Assembly: GCA_024655945.1 (NCBI GenBank) | Contig: JANLFK010000004.1 | Coordinates: forward strand, 130,370-194,369 | Source of the DNA: a candidate division KSB1 bacterium | GTDB taxonomy: Bacteria; Zhuqueibacterota; Zhuqueibacteria; JANLFK01; Oleimicrobiaceae | Direction: 5' to 3' | Length of the DNA stretch: 64,000 nucleotides | Shown here: piece by piece, positions 33,599-54,905 of the stretch | How positions within the stretch are numbered: position 1 is the first letter of the stretch | How the letters are laid out: each line of letters starts with the position of its first letter | The notes under the pieces: generated by a model | Told to the model about the DNA's origin: nothing | Database searches by the model: none | What the model saw: only the letters and a program-made list of their open reading frames with translations | Translations under genes and position numbers: made by a program

Positions 33599-33658
33599 TC
33601 ATGCGGTGAAGAGCACCGCCAGTTTTGAAAAACCAAAAACCCGCCTAGGACCGCATGA
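33599..33658. other. Overlapping alternative hairpins between two minus-strand genes
   Basis: TCATGCGGT (33599-33607) can pair with ACCGCATGA (33650-33658). The overlapping GCGGTG (33603-33608) can instead pair with CACCGC (33614-33619) across AAGAG. The intervening minus strand has T-rich runs. It may be a terminator of the damaged PEGA gene or an attenuator-like leader. The rest of 33278-33681 holds only the dispersed-repeat-like element. Confidence 0.35.
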
Positions 33659-33681
33659 AGGAGTCTGTTGTCGCTCACCCA

Positions 33682-35135
33682 TTACGGTCTGCCCGGTGGC
33701 CGGGGAAACCCCGTATCCTTTTCTTCGTGGTCTCGTTGCCATAGGACATAGGTGACCGCGCCGCCGGCGGCCACGGCGGCGGCGCCGCCCAGCCAGAGCC
33801 GGGTCTTCTTCTTACCCCTCAGTTCAGCAGTGACGTGCATGTCGGTGACTAAGGTGAACATACGCCGCCAGGGGCGGTGCTTGTCCATGGTCAGCTCCAA
33901 CTGGAGTTCCGTTCCCGCCGGTGCCTGAAAGCGGAACGGTGTCTGACCTGCGACCTGACCGTTGATAAAGAGTTTAGCGCCGGGCGGGTAGACTCTATCT
34001 CCAGCAAACAGAGCCTGGTCAGCGTGTAGTCGCGCTCGGCTACTCTTCCCATCTCGACGGCCACCTTGTCCTCAATTGGCACGTATCCGTGGGCTTCGAT
34101 GTGCAGGACATGCTCACCTGCGGCCACTTGCTCTTGTCGCACCGGGGATATGCCGATCCCCTGGCCGTCCAAGTATACCTTCGCCCCGGCAGGCGTAGTG
34201 GTGATGCTTAGCGTGCCCCCGGCGAGGGCCAACTTGGCGGAAATGGTGGTGTCGCCCGAGAGCACAACTTCCTCTGTCCAGTCAACATGCTCATCTTTGG
34301 TGATTCGTATGGCTAATCGGGTGCCCGCCACATACTCCTGCGCCCAAGGACTTTTTCCCACCGGACGGCCATTTATGAACAGCGATGCGTCCGCCGGGAT
34401 GGACAAGATACGCACCGTTGCCAGTTTTTCTAGCCGGATGCTGCATTCGCTGACTTCTCCGTTGCGCACAGTGACGTGCTCCTCGGCAGGTGCCTACTCC
34501 CTTACCGAAACCCTGACGACATGCTCGCCGGGCGTTAGGGTATCGATCTGAACAGGAGATTCCCCTACCGGATTTCCGTCCAGGAAGACCTCTGCCGGCA
34601 CGGGCAGGGTCAGCACCTTGAGTGTCCCTACCTCGGGGAGCACGGGACGATGTTTCTCCATGAAATCGGCCAGCTGATCAGCGATGGGGCGCATCAGATC
34701 CAGCAGGCCTTCGATCTCGCCGCGATAGTCCTCGGAGATGGAATTGACGATGCTCGCACTCTCGACGTCGATTACGTTGATGTCGATGGTGTACACGCGA
34801 CCGATCCTGCCCACGGAACCGCTGATCATGAACTCTGCGTTGAGAATTCTGCCGACCTGCACGGCACACTCGGTGGTGGTACAGCCGGTTTGCTGGAAGC
34901 CGGCTTCGCGCAAGAGGTCCTCCATCTTGCCACGCTCCACTACACTGAGCCGGCGAGTGCGCACGAGCATGGAACGGAGACGGTCGGTGAGGGTTCCTGC
35001 TTCGGCACGCGAGACCGCCATGCGGGTGTCCAATTCCAGGACGGCGGCAGTTCGCAGGCGCGCGGTTTGGGAGTAAAGCGACGGAGCCAGTAGGGCAGCA
35101 GCGAGAACGGCAGCGCACAGGAGCGATTTCTTCAT
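33682..35135 (-). pseudogene. CsgG/TolB-like plus PEGA-repeat envelope protein, interrupted
   Basis: Start ATG at 35135 after GGGAGGG. A signal peptide (MKKSLLCAAVLAAALLAPS) leads to a CsgG/TolB-N-like domain (RLSVVERGKMEDLLREAGF, GRILNAEFMISGSV). Four PEGA repeats follow (AEVFLDGNPVGESP, ASLFINGRPVGKSP, AKVYLDGQGIGISP, AKLFINGQVAGQTP), then a membrane helix near the end. An in-frame TAG (34494-34496) stands where Tyr is expected in repeat 1 (SVRE-stop-APAEEH), and the same frame continues beyond it. A one-base deletion at the G run 33986-33988 shifts the fourth repeat into another frame. Two lesions in otherwise conserved sequence suggest a recent pseudogene, or errors. Confidence 0.82.
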
Positions 35136-35594
35136 GGTGTCCCTCCCTCGGGAAAGGTATGCCTTCTGTTTGAGCAATATGGCAACCTTTCCGCAAAATG
35201 CGACAACTTTTTCGGGCGAGGCACGGCCGCGCAGGAGCATTCGGTTACTGCTGGGGTGCACGGCTGGAGGGAGCTGGCGAGGCAACAAGGGGGTCTTGCT
35301 GCTCCACTCACACTCTTCCTGTTGGCCGCGCCATCCCTTGCAAGTTGGCCAACCAAGGCACTGACAAAGGCTCTCGGGATTTGAGCGCACGCCGGCGCCG
35401 AGCTCAGCTACCAAAGATGCGGGCAGTTCTTTTTCGCGCGGGCCGCAGGGCTCGTCGAGGCGGAGAATTTCGGCGACCTCTGCGCTGTGCGCCGCGAGGG
35501 ACCGATTTGGTCGGCGACGCCAAAGCGTCTCGGCAGAGGTCGTCTCAGGAATTGCACGGAGGCTCATTTTTCTCCCCTTGCCAGCAAATTTCGC
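35136..35594. other. Intergenic region between divergent PEGA pseudogene and nikR
   Basis: About 460 bases with no ORF I can support on either strand. Apart from the nikR promoter and operator at its right border, and a ribosome-binding site for the pseudogene at its left, I see no recognisable element. Confidence 0.5.
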
Positions 35595-35640
35595 TTGCTT
35601 TTCTGACATCGCCGTGGTATCTTTGGCAAAAACGTAGCAC
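35595..35640 (+). promoter_or_regulatory. nikR promoter with NikR-operator-like dyad
   Basis: TTGCTT (35595-35600), 17 bases, then TATCTT (35618-35623) makes a plausible sigma70 promoter. A dyad GTGGTAT-N13-GTAGCAC (35614-35640) overlaps the -10 region. From memory, NikR sites in some Deltaproteobacteria read GTGTTAC-N13/14-GTAACAC; the halves here match 5/7 and 6/7. The position suggests autorepression by nickel-loaded NikR. Confidence 0.5.
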
Positions 35641-35658
35641 GAGGGAGGACTGGCGCAC

Positions 35659-36072
35659 ATGCTCACGAGATTCGGCATTTCGCTGGACAGCGAGCTTCTG
35701 GCCCGCTTCGACAAGATGATCGCGGAGATGGGCTACGACAACCGCTCTGAAGCCATCCGTGACCTCATCCGCGACGCGCTAGTGCAGCGCGAGTGGCAAG
35801 AGGAGAGAGGCGACCGCGTCGGGACGATTACCCTCATCTACGACCACCACTCAGGTGAGCTGCCCGAGCGGCTGACTGAGTTGCAACACGACCACGCCGA
35901 GCAGATCATCTCCACGATGCACGTGCACCTGGACCACGACAACTGCTTGGAGGTGCTGGCGGTGCGCGGCGAGGCGCGCGCTATCCGTGCCATAGCCGAC
36001 CAGCTCATCGGGACCAAAGGGGTAAAGCACGGCAAGCTCGTGGCCACTACCACCGGTCGCGAGCTGAGGTGA
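35659..36072 (+). CDS. nikR: Nickel-responsive transcriptional regulator NikR
   Basis: 137 residues. An N-terminal ribbon-helix-helix ([32 protein letters not shown]) is followed by an ACT-like metal-binding domain. The four high-affinity nickel ligands of E. coli NikR (His76, His87, His89, Cys95) are all conserved at a +1 offset as His77, His88, His90 and Cys96 (HVHLDHDNC). GAGGGAGG precedes the ATG. It represses Ni-uptake genes when nickel is plentiful. The next gene, a TonB-dependent receptor with a matching operator-like site, is the likely target. Confidence 0.96.
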
Positions 36073-50160: not shown

Positions 50161-50191
50161 AGGGGAGGCTACTCGGTCAAGCGCCTCCCCT
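50161..50191 (-). terminator. Hairpin terminator after the CsgG-family gene
   Basis: AGGGGAGGC / GCCTCCCCT, nine-base perfect stem with a 13-base loop, 90 bases beyond the CsgG stop. On the minus strand it is followed by ATTGCTTTTC, a moderate T-tract. It separates the envelope cassette from the FecR gene. The rest of the 336-base gap shows nothing. Confidence 0.65.
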
Positions 50192-50282: not shown

Positions 50283-51212
50283 CTACTGGAGGCGCACCAT
50301 GTCATCCCGCTGAAAGCCAGAGCCCTCCAGCACGACGCACTCAGAGGCCTTCCCGTTGCCGAGGCTGTTGTTGGTGACCTTGATCCTGCCTATCTTCTGG
50401 TCCACCGAGCCCAGCGAAAGGCCAGTGTCCGGGTCTACCAGCTCTTCGCCCTTGCGGTAGACCACAAACACGTCGCCGTTTTGCACGCCAGCCTCTGCGC
50501 CTGCGTTGATGAACACCGAGCCGTTAGCCTTGATGATTTTGGCCTGCCAGGGGACGTTAGCTGCGGACTTCTCCACCAGCTCCACAAGTGCATCGATGGC
50601 GTCGCGGGTGGCCTTGCCGACCAAGGATTCGTCGAACTTGTCGCGGTTGTCGAAGCTGATCTCCGGGGTGTCGACGCCGAGCCCTTTGGAGGAGCGCTCC
50701 TTGCGCACCGTCTCGGCCACGAGGATCTCCCCGGTGGTGGTATTGATGAAGCGCACATCGATGGCCACCGTCGCCTTCGTCGACTTGACGCCGACGCCGA
50801 TTCCCTTGACGCGTCCGCCCACGCCGCCTTCGCTGTAGCCGAACTCGGTCACCGCGCCGATGATAGCCAGCTCAACACCCAGCATCTTGCCTGCCTGTGC
50901 TGCGCTCTCTGGGGTGACAATGCCAGCCATGCCAAGCGCCTGCTCTTTGAGCAGCGACTCCATCTCCTTGCGCTCAAATACGCGGTAGTTGCCTGTTTTG
51001 ACCAAGGCGGTGACCAGCATGTCGGCCATGCCCTCGCCCACCGGCTGCCCGGTCCACCAGTGGTAGTGATGCGCCGTCTTGTCCTGGAAGTCGAATACGG
51101 CCACACGCCTCTTGAGGCGCTTTGTCGGTTCGCTGGTCTGGGCTGTGCTGAGCACCGGCAGCTGCGCAAGCAGCAGGCCGCACAATACAAGGGCGATCAG
51201 TCCTCTCTTCAT
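50283..51212 (-). CDS. CsgG-family outer-membrane protein
   Basis: 309 residues. Signal peptide about 1-24, then a CsgG domain (about 35-235): RRVAVFDFQDKT, GEGMADMLVTALVKTGNYRVFER, AAQAGKMLGVELAIIGAVTEFG, GRVKGIGVGVKSTKATVAIDVRFINTTTG. Curli CsgG forms a nine-fold export pore, but no curlin or csgEF gene is nearby, and there is no normal lipobox. The C-terminal part (about 240-309) is an extra beta-domain (NAGAEAGVQNGDVFVVYRKGEELVD). The chosen ATG has GGAGG seven bases upstream. It is in a run with LPP20-like, TPR-SLH and FlgT-like genes. Confidence 0.9.
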   Translation of the reverse strand: MKRGLIALVLCGLLLAQLPVLSTAQTSEPTKRLKRRVAVFDFQDKTAHHYHWWTGQPVGEGMADMLVTALVKTGNYRVFERKEMESLLKEQALGMAGIVTPESAAQAGKMLGVELAIIGAVTEFGYSEGGVGGRVKGIGVGVKSTKATVAIDVRFINTTTGEILVAETVRKERSSKGLGVDTPEISFDNRDKFDESLVGKATRDAIDALVELVEKSAANVPWQAKIIKANGSVFINAGAEAGVQNGDVFVVYRKGEELVDPDTGLSLGSVDQKIGRIKVTNNSLGNGKASECVVLEGSGFQRDDMVRLQ

Positions 51213-51248
51213 AGCATCACCTCCGTGGGATAGGAAGTGGATATGCAC

Positions 51249-52457
51249 CTACTCAGGCTCAGCGACAGGTTGCACTTTCGGCACGAAGCGAGCTGTGATC
51301 CGGTTGGCAGAGACGCTCTCCACCGTGATGGTGAAGCGACCAAAGTCGCGCCGCTCGAATTCCCGCGCCAGCTGGGTGGCATTGCCACTGATCTTCACAT
51401 CCAGCTCGGCAGAGCCACCGCCATAGTTGCGCTGGTAGATGTTCTTGACGCCACGCAGGTAGAACTTGGCGGTGGTGACGAAATCGCTCAACTGGGCCAT
51501 AGACTCCAGCCCGCGCAGCACGATCTTCACCTCGCCGACGTTGTAGTACTTGTCCCGCCACTTGGCGAGGATCTTGGCAATGAGTCCTTCGGCGAACTTG
51601 TTCGCGGCCTTCTGAATGGCCATAGTGCCGCCGGTCACTTCGTCGATGTGCGGGTAGGCGGCGTGCTCGCTGGCTGTGGCCAGCACGCGGCCCACATCGG
51701 CCTCGACCACCCGCGCCGTGATGTTCGCCTGGCAGGACTTCATGCCCGCCATGTTGAAACCGCTGGCCACCGTTGCCACCGCCTTGCCGGTGATGACGAT
51801 TTCGGCGCCAAAGGAGAGGCCTATGGCGGCGGCCGCTTTGTCGTCTCCTTGCAGGGCGGCCATCACCTGCTCGCGCTTGATGTTCTCGCGCACCGTGCCG
51901 GGGTCCACCACGGGGAAGTCGCTGTCCACGAACTTTTGCATGATCGCCGTCTCGGCGGCGGTCATGTTGACGTCAAACCATCGGAAGTGCCCGGTCGGGT
52001 CGCCGATGTTCTGCTCGTCGATAATGACCATCACCCGCGGGTTGCCCATGCGCTCGATAAGGTTCTTGACCGCCTCAGCGTCGCGCTGCAGCTCGCCCAG
52101 TGCCACCTCTGCCTTGAGGCGCACCTCGTAGAGCTCCGGGGTCTTCTTGTAATCGGAAAGGATGGTGTAGTTTTGCACATAGCCGCGCGTCCAGCTGAGG
52201 ATGTTGTCATCGACGACCTGGTAGTTCTGCACCTTGGTCTCGGACTCGATGAAGGTGCCAAGGGCCTGTTCTACTGCCTGGCGCAAGGCGTCATCGATGG
52301 CACGGTCGCGGGCGCCTGCCACGTCGCCCTCAAAGATGCTGCCGGTGCCGACTGCTTCGATCACCTTGGTCATAGGGGGCGGTACTTGGCAGATGCCAGA
52401 GACGCCACCGATGAGCAGCGTGAGCGATAGCAGTACGACGGTTGCGAGAGTCTTCAC
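51249..52457 (-). CDS. FlgT-like secreted protein
   Basis: 402 residues. A GTG start is chosen because GAGGAGG lies six bases upstream; an ATG 24 bases earlier has no such signal. Signal peptide (KTLATVVLLSLTLLIGG). Residues about 30-125 match the FlgT N-terminal fold (GSIFEGDVAGARDRAIDDALRQAVEQALGTFI, SWTRGYVQNYTILSDYK). The middle and C-terminal domains resemble CsgG/TolB-like and secretin-associated folds. FlgT proper belongs to the Vibrio flagellar H-ring; no flagellar gene is present here, so this is a related envelope module. It starts 36 bases before the CsgG gene. Confidence 0.8.
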   Translation of the reverse strand: MKTLATVVLLSLTLLIGGVSGICQVPPPMTKVIEAVGTGSIFEGDVAGARDRAIDDALRQAVEQALGTFIESETKVQNYQVVDDNILSWTRGYVQNYTILSDYKKTPELYEVRLKAEVALGELQRDAEAVKNLIERMGNPRVMVIIDEQNIGDPTGHFRWFDVNMTAAETAIMQKFVDSDFPVVDPGTVRENIKREQVMAALQGDDKAAAAIGLSFGAEIVITGKAVATVASGFNMAGMKSCQANITARVVEADVGRVLATASEHAAYPHIDEVTGGTMAIQKAANKFAEGLIAKILAKWRDKYYNVGEVKIVLRGLESMAQLSDFVTTAKFYLRGVKNIYQRNYGGGSAELDVKISGNATQLAREFERRDFGRFTITVESVSANRITARFVPKVQPVAEPE

Positions 52458-52504
52458 CTGCAACCTCCTCTCCGTCTGCATGCGCGCATGAGTAGGACGG
52501 ACAA

Positions 52505-52535
52505 GAAGGGGATCCCAGAGTTAGGGATCCCCTTC
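52505..52535 (-). terminator. 12-bp perfect hairpin inside the envelope cassette
   Basis: GAAGGGGATCCC-N7-GGGATCCCCTTC lies between the TPR-SLH and FlgT-like genes. On the minus strand it is followed by TTGTCCGTCC, not a good T-tract. It may attenuate transcription or protect the 3' end of the upstream message. Confidence 0.5.
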
Positions 52536-52540
52536 GTCAG

Positions 52541-53698
52541 TTAGAACGTCATGCGCATTGCGTTCTGGAAGTCACGTATGGCCAGAAGGGCATCAGCCCC
52601 GGACATGTGGTCGTTGAGCCGGAACTCGCCGGTCATCTTGTCGGCCGCCATGATGCCGCGGCTGACCATGAGCATGATGGAGTTGAACGCCCAGTGGCTT
52701 GGGTTGACATCCGGGAAGGGCGACGACTCGCCGATAAACTTGGTGGCCAGCGTCTGGTCGCCTGTGGCCAGGATCATGATGTCCTGCATGATTTTGGCGT
52801 AGTTGGCTCTGGTGATCTTCTCGTCCGGGCGGAAGGTATGGTCGGGGAAGACATCCATGCCCTGGGCCGCCACGATGTCTTTGATCCAGTTCTTAGCCCA
52901 ATGCCCCTCGATGTCCGTCACATCGGGAAGCTTCGCTTCGGGCTGTGCCATCTTGGTGACGTCTTCGGGCGGGCGGAAGCCAGTGTCGTACGTCTTGGCG
53001 CGCTTCTTCTCCAGCAGCTCCATGAGCTTGAGCTCTTCCATCAGCAGCACCCCCAGGTCCGCCCGGCTGATCTCAGGGATGAGGGCGATCTTGGCGCCGA
53101 CTTTGGTGCCAGGAGCGGCGCGTTGAATCTTTTGCACCAAGGCCCACTCCTTGTCGGCAGCTGCCGCATAGTTGCCCTTCATCTCGATCACCTTGGCGAA
53201 AGCAGCGGCCGCCTGACCAAAGTCATAGCCTTCCTTGTAGGTGATGCCCATGAAGTACAGCGGCTTGTCGCTGCTTGGGTACTGCTCGGCTGCCTTCTTG
53301 AACTCCTTGACCGCCTCCTCCATCCAGTCATCACCTTTGCGACGCATGGTGATGATGCGTCCCTTGATGATGCGCGCCTCAAGGGAGTTCTTGTTCTTGG
53401 CGAGGGCTTGGTCAACCAGCTCCATCGCCTTCTGGAAGTCCTGCTTGCTGGCATGCACCAGGGCCAGGCCGGCGTAAGCCTCGGCGTACTTCGGGTCCAG
53501 TGACTTGGCGCGCTCGAACTCCTGCACCGCCAGGTCGAGATTGCCACGGTCCAGCTCCCGCATGCCCTGGTTGAAGTGGTTGTCCGGCGTGTCCAGCACC
53601 GACTTGGGCTTGATTGCCTTCGGGCCGCATCCAACCAGCCAGAGGACAAGCACGCTTGCCAGCAGCGTTGCGACGAACTTTAGACTTCTGTTCTGCAT
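52541..53698 (-). CDS. Lipoprotein with TPR repeats and SLH-like domain
   Basis: 385 residues. The signal peptide ends at lipobox LVGC (Cys24), so it is probably a lipoprotein. TPR repeats cover about 45-190 (NHFNQGMRELDRGNLDLAVQEFERAKSLDPKYAEAYAGLA). The C-terminal part has SLH-type units (PDVTDIEGHWAKNWIKDIVAAQGMDVFPDHTFRPDEKITRANYAKI and a second, PFPDVNPSHWAFNSI). SLH domains bind peptidoglycan-linked polymers and are found in some outer-membrane-tethering proteins of deep Gram-negative lineages. GGAG lies upstream of the ATG. It starts 51 bases after the LPP20-like stop. Confidence 0.87.
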   Translation of the reverse strand: MQNRSLKFVATLLASVLVLWLVGCGPKAIKPKSVLDTPDNHFNQGMRELDRGNLDLAVQEFERAKSLDPKYAEAYAGLALVHASKQDFQKAMELVDQALAKNKNSLEARIIKGRIITMRRKGDDWMEEAVKEFKKAAEQYPSSDKPLYFMGITYKEGYDFGQAAAAFAKVIEMKGNYAAAADKEWALVQKIQRAAPGTKVGAKIALIPEISRADLGVLLMEELKLMELLEKKRAKTYDTGFRPPEDVTKMAQPEAKLPDVTDIEGHWAKNWIKDIVAAQGMDVFPDHTFRPDEKITRANYAKIMQDIMILATGDQTLATKFIGESSPFPDVNPSHWAFNSIMLMVSRGIMAADKMTGEFRLNDHMSGADALLAIRDFQNAMRMTF

Positions 53699-53749
53699 AG
53701 TGCTCTCCTTGCAGCAAAGGCCCAACGCTCCGTCGACGTGCCGTGGCGA

Positions 53750-54664
53750 TCAGTCGACGACGAACATGACCCGACACTTGTCCAGGAAGCTCTGGGTGCT
53801 GGAGGCCGCATGGATGGCCGCCGCATCGGCGTTGGAGATGACCACATCCGCCTTGTTGGCACCCGTGGCCTTAATGGCCTTGACGATGAGAGGATTGTTC
53901 GTCACCCGCTCGTTCGTGCGTGCACGGTTGACGTCCTTGTCGTAGCCCACCATGCCGATCTGCACGGCCCAGTCCCTGCTCACGAACTTGGAGCCGTACA
54001 CTTCCTGGCCGTTCTCATCCAGGACTTTTGGCGCCATGGCAGGGCGGACACCCAGCCCCTTGGTGTCGATGATCAGACCAGTGTAAGTCCCTGCCGCAGC
54101 TGCTTGTGCCTGTACGCCGGGTGCTCCGGGCTGGATGAGCTGCACACCGGGAGGCACCGGCTTGCCCGCGGGCCACGGTTGGCCGCAGACCGGGCAGAGG
54201 GGTTGAGCCGCCCCGGGGTAGACACCGCCGCCCAAGTGCGCCGGCAACAAGACGTCTGCCAACGCGCCGGTCAGGGGCATCTCGACGGTGACCTCCACAT
54301 CGCCGGTGGACATGTACTTGGTGTCCACGATGGTGAAGTTGCGCAGGACGCCCTGCACGCGGGTGTTGATGACGTCATTTTCCACCATGGCGTTGCGGAC
54401 TGTCACTTCCGAGGTAAGCTGAACCCCTTGCACGGCTTCGAGGAGATTGCGGAAGGCGGCTCGCTTGGCTGCCTCGATAGCCCCTGCGCGCTGCGCTGCC
54501 AAGGGGTGGTCAGGATTCGGTGCCCCTATGCCGGTGGCCCGCACGACCTGTCGACTCCAATCGACGCTGCCCGCCGGCCCCACCGGCTGGGTGAGGTACT
54601 GTCCCCACGCGAGCGTCGCGCACGCTACCAGCACGCACACGAACATTGCACGGACCGCTCTCAT
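53750..54664 (-). CDS. LPP20-like secreted envelope protein with CxxC motif
   Basis: 304 residues, signal peptide about 1-21 (ending WGQ). Residues about 35-130 match the LPP20/FlgP-like fold (VVRATGIGAPNP, AAQRAGAIEAAKRAAFRNLLEAVQGVQL, DVEVTVEMPL). A short CPVCGQPW motif at about 160 could bind zinc or form a disulfide. The C-terminal domain is unfamiliar (GLIIDTKGLGVRPAMAPKVLDENGQEVYG). It is the first gene of the envelope cassette. GGAG precedes the ATG. A CRP/FNR-like palindrome lies about 125 bases upstream. Confidence 0.82.
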   Translation of the reverse strand: MRAVRAMFVCVLVACATLAWGQYLTQPVGPAGSVDWSRQVVRATGIGAPNPDHPLAAQRAGAIEAAKRAAFRNLLEAVQGVQLTSEVTVRNAMVENDVINTRVQGVLRNFTIVDTKYMSTGDVEVTVEMPLTGALADVLLPAHLGGGVYPGAAQPLCPVCGQPWPAGKPVPPGVQLIQPGAPGVQAQAAAAGTYTGLIIDTKGLGVRPAMAPKVLDENGQEVYGSKFVSRDWAVQIGMVGYDKDVNRARTNERVTNNPLIVKAIKATGANKADVVISNADAAAIHAASSTQSFLDKCRVMFVVD

Positions 54665-54804: not shown

Positions 54805-54832
54805 AGAGGTGCATTCCGCCCAAAAAAAATAG

Positions 54833-54905
54833 AGCGAATGACGGGATTCGAACCCGCGACAGCTGGCTTGGGAAGCCAGTGCTCTACCAGCTGAGCTACA
54901 TTCGC
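54833..54905 (-). tRNA. tRNA-Gly (anticodon CCC)
   Basis: 73 bases on the minus strand. Acceptor stem GCGAATG / CATTCGC, D-arm AGCTCAGCTGGTAGAGC, anticodon stem CTGGC / GCCAG around loop TTCCCAA with anticodon CCC, and T-arm GCGGG-TTCGAAT-CCCGT. Discriminator base T. The CCA end is not encoded. A run of eight T residues follows the 3' end on the minus strand and could terminate the transcript. Confidence 0.95.

Follow-up and report, generated by a model that had tools for sequence, protein, structure and literature searches.

A conserved four-gene envelope cassette in candidate division KSB1 and relatives: a putative flagellum-independent collar with the domain set of the Vibrio H-ring

On balance, we slightly favor the view that four adjoining genes of a candidate division KSB1 bacterium encode a flagellum-independent periplasmic collar, lying under the outer membrane and built from the domain set of the Vibrio H-ring. 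We read the cassette in this way because three of its four proteins map, by profile and by fold, to ring proteins of Vibrio and Campylobacter. The genes form an invariant operon whose distribution is independent of flagella, and since this four-gene unit occurs mostly in genomes that lack them, it is probably a separate ring or scaffold between the outer membrane and the cell wall. Its role would most likely be that of a scaffold joining the outer membrane to the peptidoglycan, or of a collar around some envelope machine, rather than that of an export pore.

The cassette occupies positions 50283-54664 of the window (the whole 64,000-nucleotide stretch of DNA that was analyzed) and consists of four consecutive minus-strand open reading frames with signal peptides. 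In order, these are P0001 (53750..54664), which combines an LPP20/SHS2 (FlgP-like) domain (Pfam LPP20, 1.1e-6) with a C-terminal domain akin to domain 2 of Treponema Tp0624; P0002 (52541..53698), a lipoprotein that carries TPR repeats and a pair of SLH domains (Pfam TPR_2, 2.5e-12; SLH, 3.4e-12); P0003 (51249..52481), a LipL46-like protein with FlgT_N (Pfam, 2.3e-7), a CsgG/FlgT-middle-like domain and a C-terminal alpha/beta domain; and P0004 (50283..51212), which has a CsgG-fold domain (Pfam CsgG, 2.2e-43) and a FlgT_C-like tail that also resembles the C-terminal part of TsaP (Pfam FlgT_C, 1.9e-4, under Pfam's own cut-off). The initial annotation had placed four secreted proteins side by side here, and the reading frames, signal peptides and Pfam domains agree with it. 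Immediately upstream lies a tRNA-Gly(ccc) gene (54832-54905, minus strand), itself preceded by a promoter-like site (34-61 bases away); co-transcription of the tRNA and the cassette is possible. On the 3' side of the fourth gene, in the gap between the CsgG and FecR genes, a strong minus-strand hairpin (50161-50191; stem AGGGGAGGC/GCCTCCCCT, then AUUGCUUUU on the minus strand) has a U-containing tail and a region z-score of -1.5. It was missed by a consensus terminator scan because its loop is long, and it is a plausible terminator. The FecR protein that had been described as following a terminator is present beyond it (P0005, 49191..49946, minus strand), and is an exported, Lsa33/LipL45-like protein (FecR, 1e-16; Lsa33, 4.9e-18); the terminator itself is supported as far as the hairpin makes it plausible. 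Elsewhere in the window, the damaged PEGA protein for which a CsgG-like domain had been reported does carry one (about 34812-35012, 1.2e-6). The gene, encoding a CsgG domain and PEGA repeats (33600-35714, minus strand), is broken by frame changes, and no close copy was found in two congeneric genomes, where the best match has 29% identity.

Across the phylum (candidate division KSB1/Calditrichota), all four genes were found in the same order and on one strand in 37 of 37 untruncated loci, with median intergenic gaps of 51, 77 and 81 bp (44 regions were read, and the seven cut by contig ends were left out). The scattering of the genes in relatives, which the initial annotation had named as a reason to abandon the idea of a cassette, was thus not observed, and the grouping exceeds chance. 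Relatives of P0003 were detected in 51 of the 82 genomes of the phylum (E <= 0.001); we counted 50 carriers, dropping G014, which has weak fragments only, and keeping G070 on a short fragment at a contig edge. Identity to the window proteins among the phylum members aligned is at least 51% for P0001, P0002 and P0004, and at least 37% for P0003. Many loci continue on the 3' side with FecR, a PerM-size gene, a DUF512-size gene and Der, and a FecR gene of the P0005 type often adjoins the cassette in KSB1, as it adjoins FlgT in other phyla. In some KSB1 families, a second, diverged CsgG gene stands after the first (L039, L044, L045, L049, L128). Five cassette-less relatives retain the TPR-SLH gene alone at the same locus, which suggests that the TPR-SLH protein does not need the ring genes to function. 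At loci L155-L159, where the ring genes are absent, a diverged TPR-SLH lipoprotein is found mostly beside DUF512-size and Der genes.

Searched with Foldseek, the AF2 model of P0004 (pLDDT 83) matched Vibrio FlgT first (3w1e, 3.1e-14, TM 0.63 over 292 columns), then the FlgT-like chain of the LPHT ring and then CsgG; PelC and LpoB structures were matched as well, the latter more weakly and over a shorter length than FlgT. The family profile of P0004 matched CsgG (7e-11), in an alignment that covers the TM1 region and the beginning of TM2, and TsaP (3jc8, 4.3e-8). Judged by its model, P0004 would be nearer overall to Vibrio FlgT (middle and C domains) than to CsgG. The best match of the P0003 model (pLDDT 89) was FlgT 8z5n_0 of the LPHT ring (9.7e-10), then 3w1e (8e-9); its full-length TM-score against FlgT is low (0.29), and the match is therefore one of domain by domain. 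By fold, the N, middle and C domains of FlgT are split over two proteins, with N and middle in P0003 and middle and C in P0004. P0003 also matched the NCBIfam family LipL46 over residues 39-321 (3.5e-18, 65.5 bits against a cut-off of 400).

Among structures, the family profile of P0001 matched 9hmf_C (3.8e-8), whose entry calls it a putative lipoprotein and which we take to be a Campylobacter-type FlgP, as well as Vibrio FlgP (8z5n_2, 4.4e-5) and Tp0624 (5jir, 9.6e-8). P0001 aligns with 9hmf_C and Vibrio FlgP, with one gap, through the segment bearing the insert after the SHS2 helix. In the FlgP family, this insert correlates with ring formation (PMC12222027). The Tp0624 match falls in the C-terminal part of P0001 and concerns domain 2, a domain of unknown function beside an OmpA-like domain (PMC5104382). 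Matches of P0001 to MoaC were under the cut-off and were disregarded. The linker of P0001 (window about 54170-54215) contains a CxxC knuckle, LCPVCGQPWP, shared by most family members and absent in several; in an exported protein, it could be an inter-subunit metal or disulfide site.

P0002 carries the lipobox LVGC, whose cysteine is invariant in 24 aligned members, and no outer-membrane beta-barrel domain was found in this TPR lipoprotein. It is the sole SLH protein of this genome, as is the TPR-SLH protein in most carriers (exceptions include G055 and G065). Two of its SLH domains are clear by Pfam; a third repeat is not established, with a motif remnant at most. OmpA-type domains, present in every one of the phylum's 82 genomes, offer other possible tethers, and we therefore rule out that the SLH protein is the only one at the outer membrane.

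The model that we infer for ring formation, location and cargo would begin with the SHS2 domain of P0001 (perhaps also FlgT_N of P0003) multimerizing into a ring, as in FlgP. P0003 and P0004, with their FlgT/CsgG folds, would stack on the P0001 ring and jointly supply the N, middle and C domains of FlgT. P0002 would then act as a fixed bridge, with its lipid anchor in the outer membrane, its SLH domains reaching the cell wall and its TPR repeats contacting the ring. Several points argue against such a collar. P0003 has a segment similar in length to the FlgP insert that is predicted to be helical in the monomer model, and not a beta-hairpin. SHS2 and CsgG folds are shared by proteins that do not assemble into large rings (Lpp20, LpoB), the clear SLH domains are only two, and OmpA-type domains offer an alternative. 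The low full-length score of P0003 against FlgT and the retention of the TPR-SLH gene alone in five relatives count on the same side.

Outside the phylum, where we combined an alignment scan of named genomes with profile annotation of the neighbors, FlgT relatives accompanied by some of the other genes were found in Zixibacteria, Latescibacteria, Nitrospirota, Nitrospinota, Myxococcota, Thermodesulfobacteriota and Planctomycetota. Zixibacteria have the arrangement LPP20-FlgT-CsgG, Latescibacteria and Myxococcota have LPP20-FlgT-FecR, some Desulfobacterales have LPP20-TPR/SLH-FlgT-FecR, and Nitrospirota have LPP20-LPP20-FlgT and a CsgG gene nearby; Pfam confirms the SLH domains in two TPR-SLH proteins from outside the phylum. 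The FlgT tree mostly tracks phyla, with KSB1, Zixibacteria and Latescibacteria grouped (100/99) and one transfer between Syntrophaceae and Nitrospirota, and the family therefore looks old. At L118, L132 and L133, a FecR gene and then a gene for CHASE2 and an adenylate/guanylate cyclase adjoin LPP20-FlgT, hinting at envelope sensing. In Desulfobacterales and Nitrospinota, genes for a GNA1162-like lipoprotein and a CsgG protein stand together next to the cassette (as at L109, 7154-8798), and this pair appears to be a second conserved CsgG-fold set.

The relation of the cassette to flagella can be judged from its distribution. Among the 82 genomes, 15 have both the cassette and FlhA, 35 the cassette only, 18 FlhA only and 14 neither (10, 18, 12 and 9, in the same order, when completeness is 90% or more and contamination 5% or less), and FlgI is distributed alike and was found in none of the 35 cassette-only genomes; that is, 35 of the 50 cassette genomes lack both FlhA and FlgI. 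Some nearly complete carriers (G055, G063) have no match to FlhA, FlgI or a secretin. No positive link between the cassette and FlhA emerges; a Fisher test gave a negative link (p 0.02), a raw value, uncorrected for shared ancestry, on which we do not rely. These counts exclude a dedicated flagellar role as the general function, and they largely refute, in that sense, the proposal that the cassette is the H-ring or basal disk of this organism's flagellum, encoded apart from the flagellar cluster. Such a cluster does exist: contig C2 of the same genome carries FlhA, FlhB, FliR, FlgI, FlgA, FlgG, FlgK and flagellin, so that the initial statement of no flagellar genes is true locally only, and the possible use of the cassette by flagellar genes elsewhere in the genome has part of its premise. 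The genome's only LPP20 and FlgT_N domains, moreover, sit in P0001 and P0003, so that in flagellated members the cassette may still serve the flagellum, and relatives of these two proteins belong to the flagellar rings of Vibrio and Campylobacter. Nevertheless, we consider this proposal highly improbable: the counts speak against it, and no flagellar genes are among the recurrent neighbors in the other phyla. Since the flagellar association fails and no Pfam match to FlgO was found among the four proteins, we do not count the cassette among the flagellar H-rings.

An outer-membrane export channel of the CsgG type (curli-like, or for another amyloid or a polysaccharide), with accessory lipoproteins, is also improbable in our view. 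The full-length CsgG Pfam match of P0004, its profile alignment to the CsgG hairpin regions and its Foldseek matches to PelC and CsgG would fit a channel, but its best overall fold is that of FlgT, and several CsgG-fold proteins, such as LpoB and FlgT, are soluble. A pore is made less likely by the family alignment, in which no lipobox cysteine is conserved, and by a rough hydropathy test, in which the hairpin segments are long enough and TM2 lacks the alternating lipid-facing pattern of an amphipathic hairpin in most members. Neither CsgF nor a curlin repeat was found in a genome-wide search, which extends the initial statement on curli genes to the whole genome for these two. The idea of a separate outer-membrane export or tethering complex is thereby divided: its export half is not supported, given the FlgT-like fold, the lack of a conserved lipobox, the TM2 pattern and the missing curli partners, and its tethering half is supported by the invariant unit, the ring-protein folds, the SLH lipoprotein and the occurrence mostly without flagella. 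Dependence on a secretin (type IV pili or type II secretion) was ruled out as a general role: secretins are common, and nearly complete carriers exist without a secretin match. Unlikely, if somewhat less so than export, is a ring-free role in envelope maintenance, either peptidoglycan-synthase activation by an LpoB-like CsgG fold, or loosely grouped outer-membrane lipoproteins linked through FecR to the sensing of envelope stress. It draws on the LpoB matches of P0004 and of the neighboring CsgG/GNA1162 proteins in Desulfobacterales, and on the recurrence of FecR with CHASE2-cyclase genes in Latescibacteria. However, the LpoB matches of P0004 fall behind that to FlgT, and the FlgP-type domain and the invariant four-gene unit are left unexplained.

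More tentatively, and less likely than not, the cassette may be an ancient non-flagellar outer-membrane ring machine, present in several phyla and sharing ancestry with flagellar H-rings and basal disks, which might have been recruited from a free-standing collar of this type. We found no description of the cassette in the open-access literature, and none pairing LPP20 with CsgG. Recent structural work describes the FlgP family as a broad one and the disk as comparatively ancient (PMC12222027). For the question of how flagellar outer-membrane disks arose, a conserved operon of FlgP-like and FlgT-like genes in bacteria that lack flagella brings a non-flagellar relative of these rings within reach of a direct test.

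The closest known system is the Vibrio H-ring (FlgO, FlgP, FlgT), with which the cassette shares the FlgP-type SHS2/LPP20 domain, the three FlgT domains by fold, a periplasmic, outer-membrane-side placement (predicted for the cassette) and gene adjacency (V. fischeri VF_1883-1885, PMC6375700). It differs in that its FlgT domains lie in two proteins instead of one chain, in the added TPR-SLH lipoprotein and Tp0624-like domain, in having no recognized FlgO domain, and in occurring mainly in genomes without flagella. With the Campylobacter basal disk, the likeness is the alignment of the P0001 SHS2 domain across the ring-forming-insert segment of FlgP; unlike this single-domain protein, P0001 has a second, C-terminal domain and a non-flagellar setting. 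The curli secretion channel CsgG has its CsgG domain in common with P0004, which differs by its extra FlgT_C domain, its mostly non-amphipathic TM2 and the lack of a conserved lipobox, in a genome where the curli components CsgF and curlin were not found. P0003 resembles LipL46 and P0005 resembles Lsa33/LipL45 of Leptospira, in each case far under the curated cut-offs. Finally, P0002 is like OmpM, the SLH tether of diderm Terrabacteria, in bearing SLH on a protein anchored in the outer membrane, with a lipoprotein anchor and TPR repeats where OmpM has a beta-barrel. In a Gracilicutes phylum, a group from which OmpM is reported absent (PMC10628300), SLH domains are thus carried by a lipoprotein.
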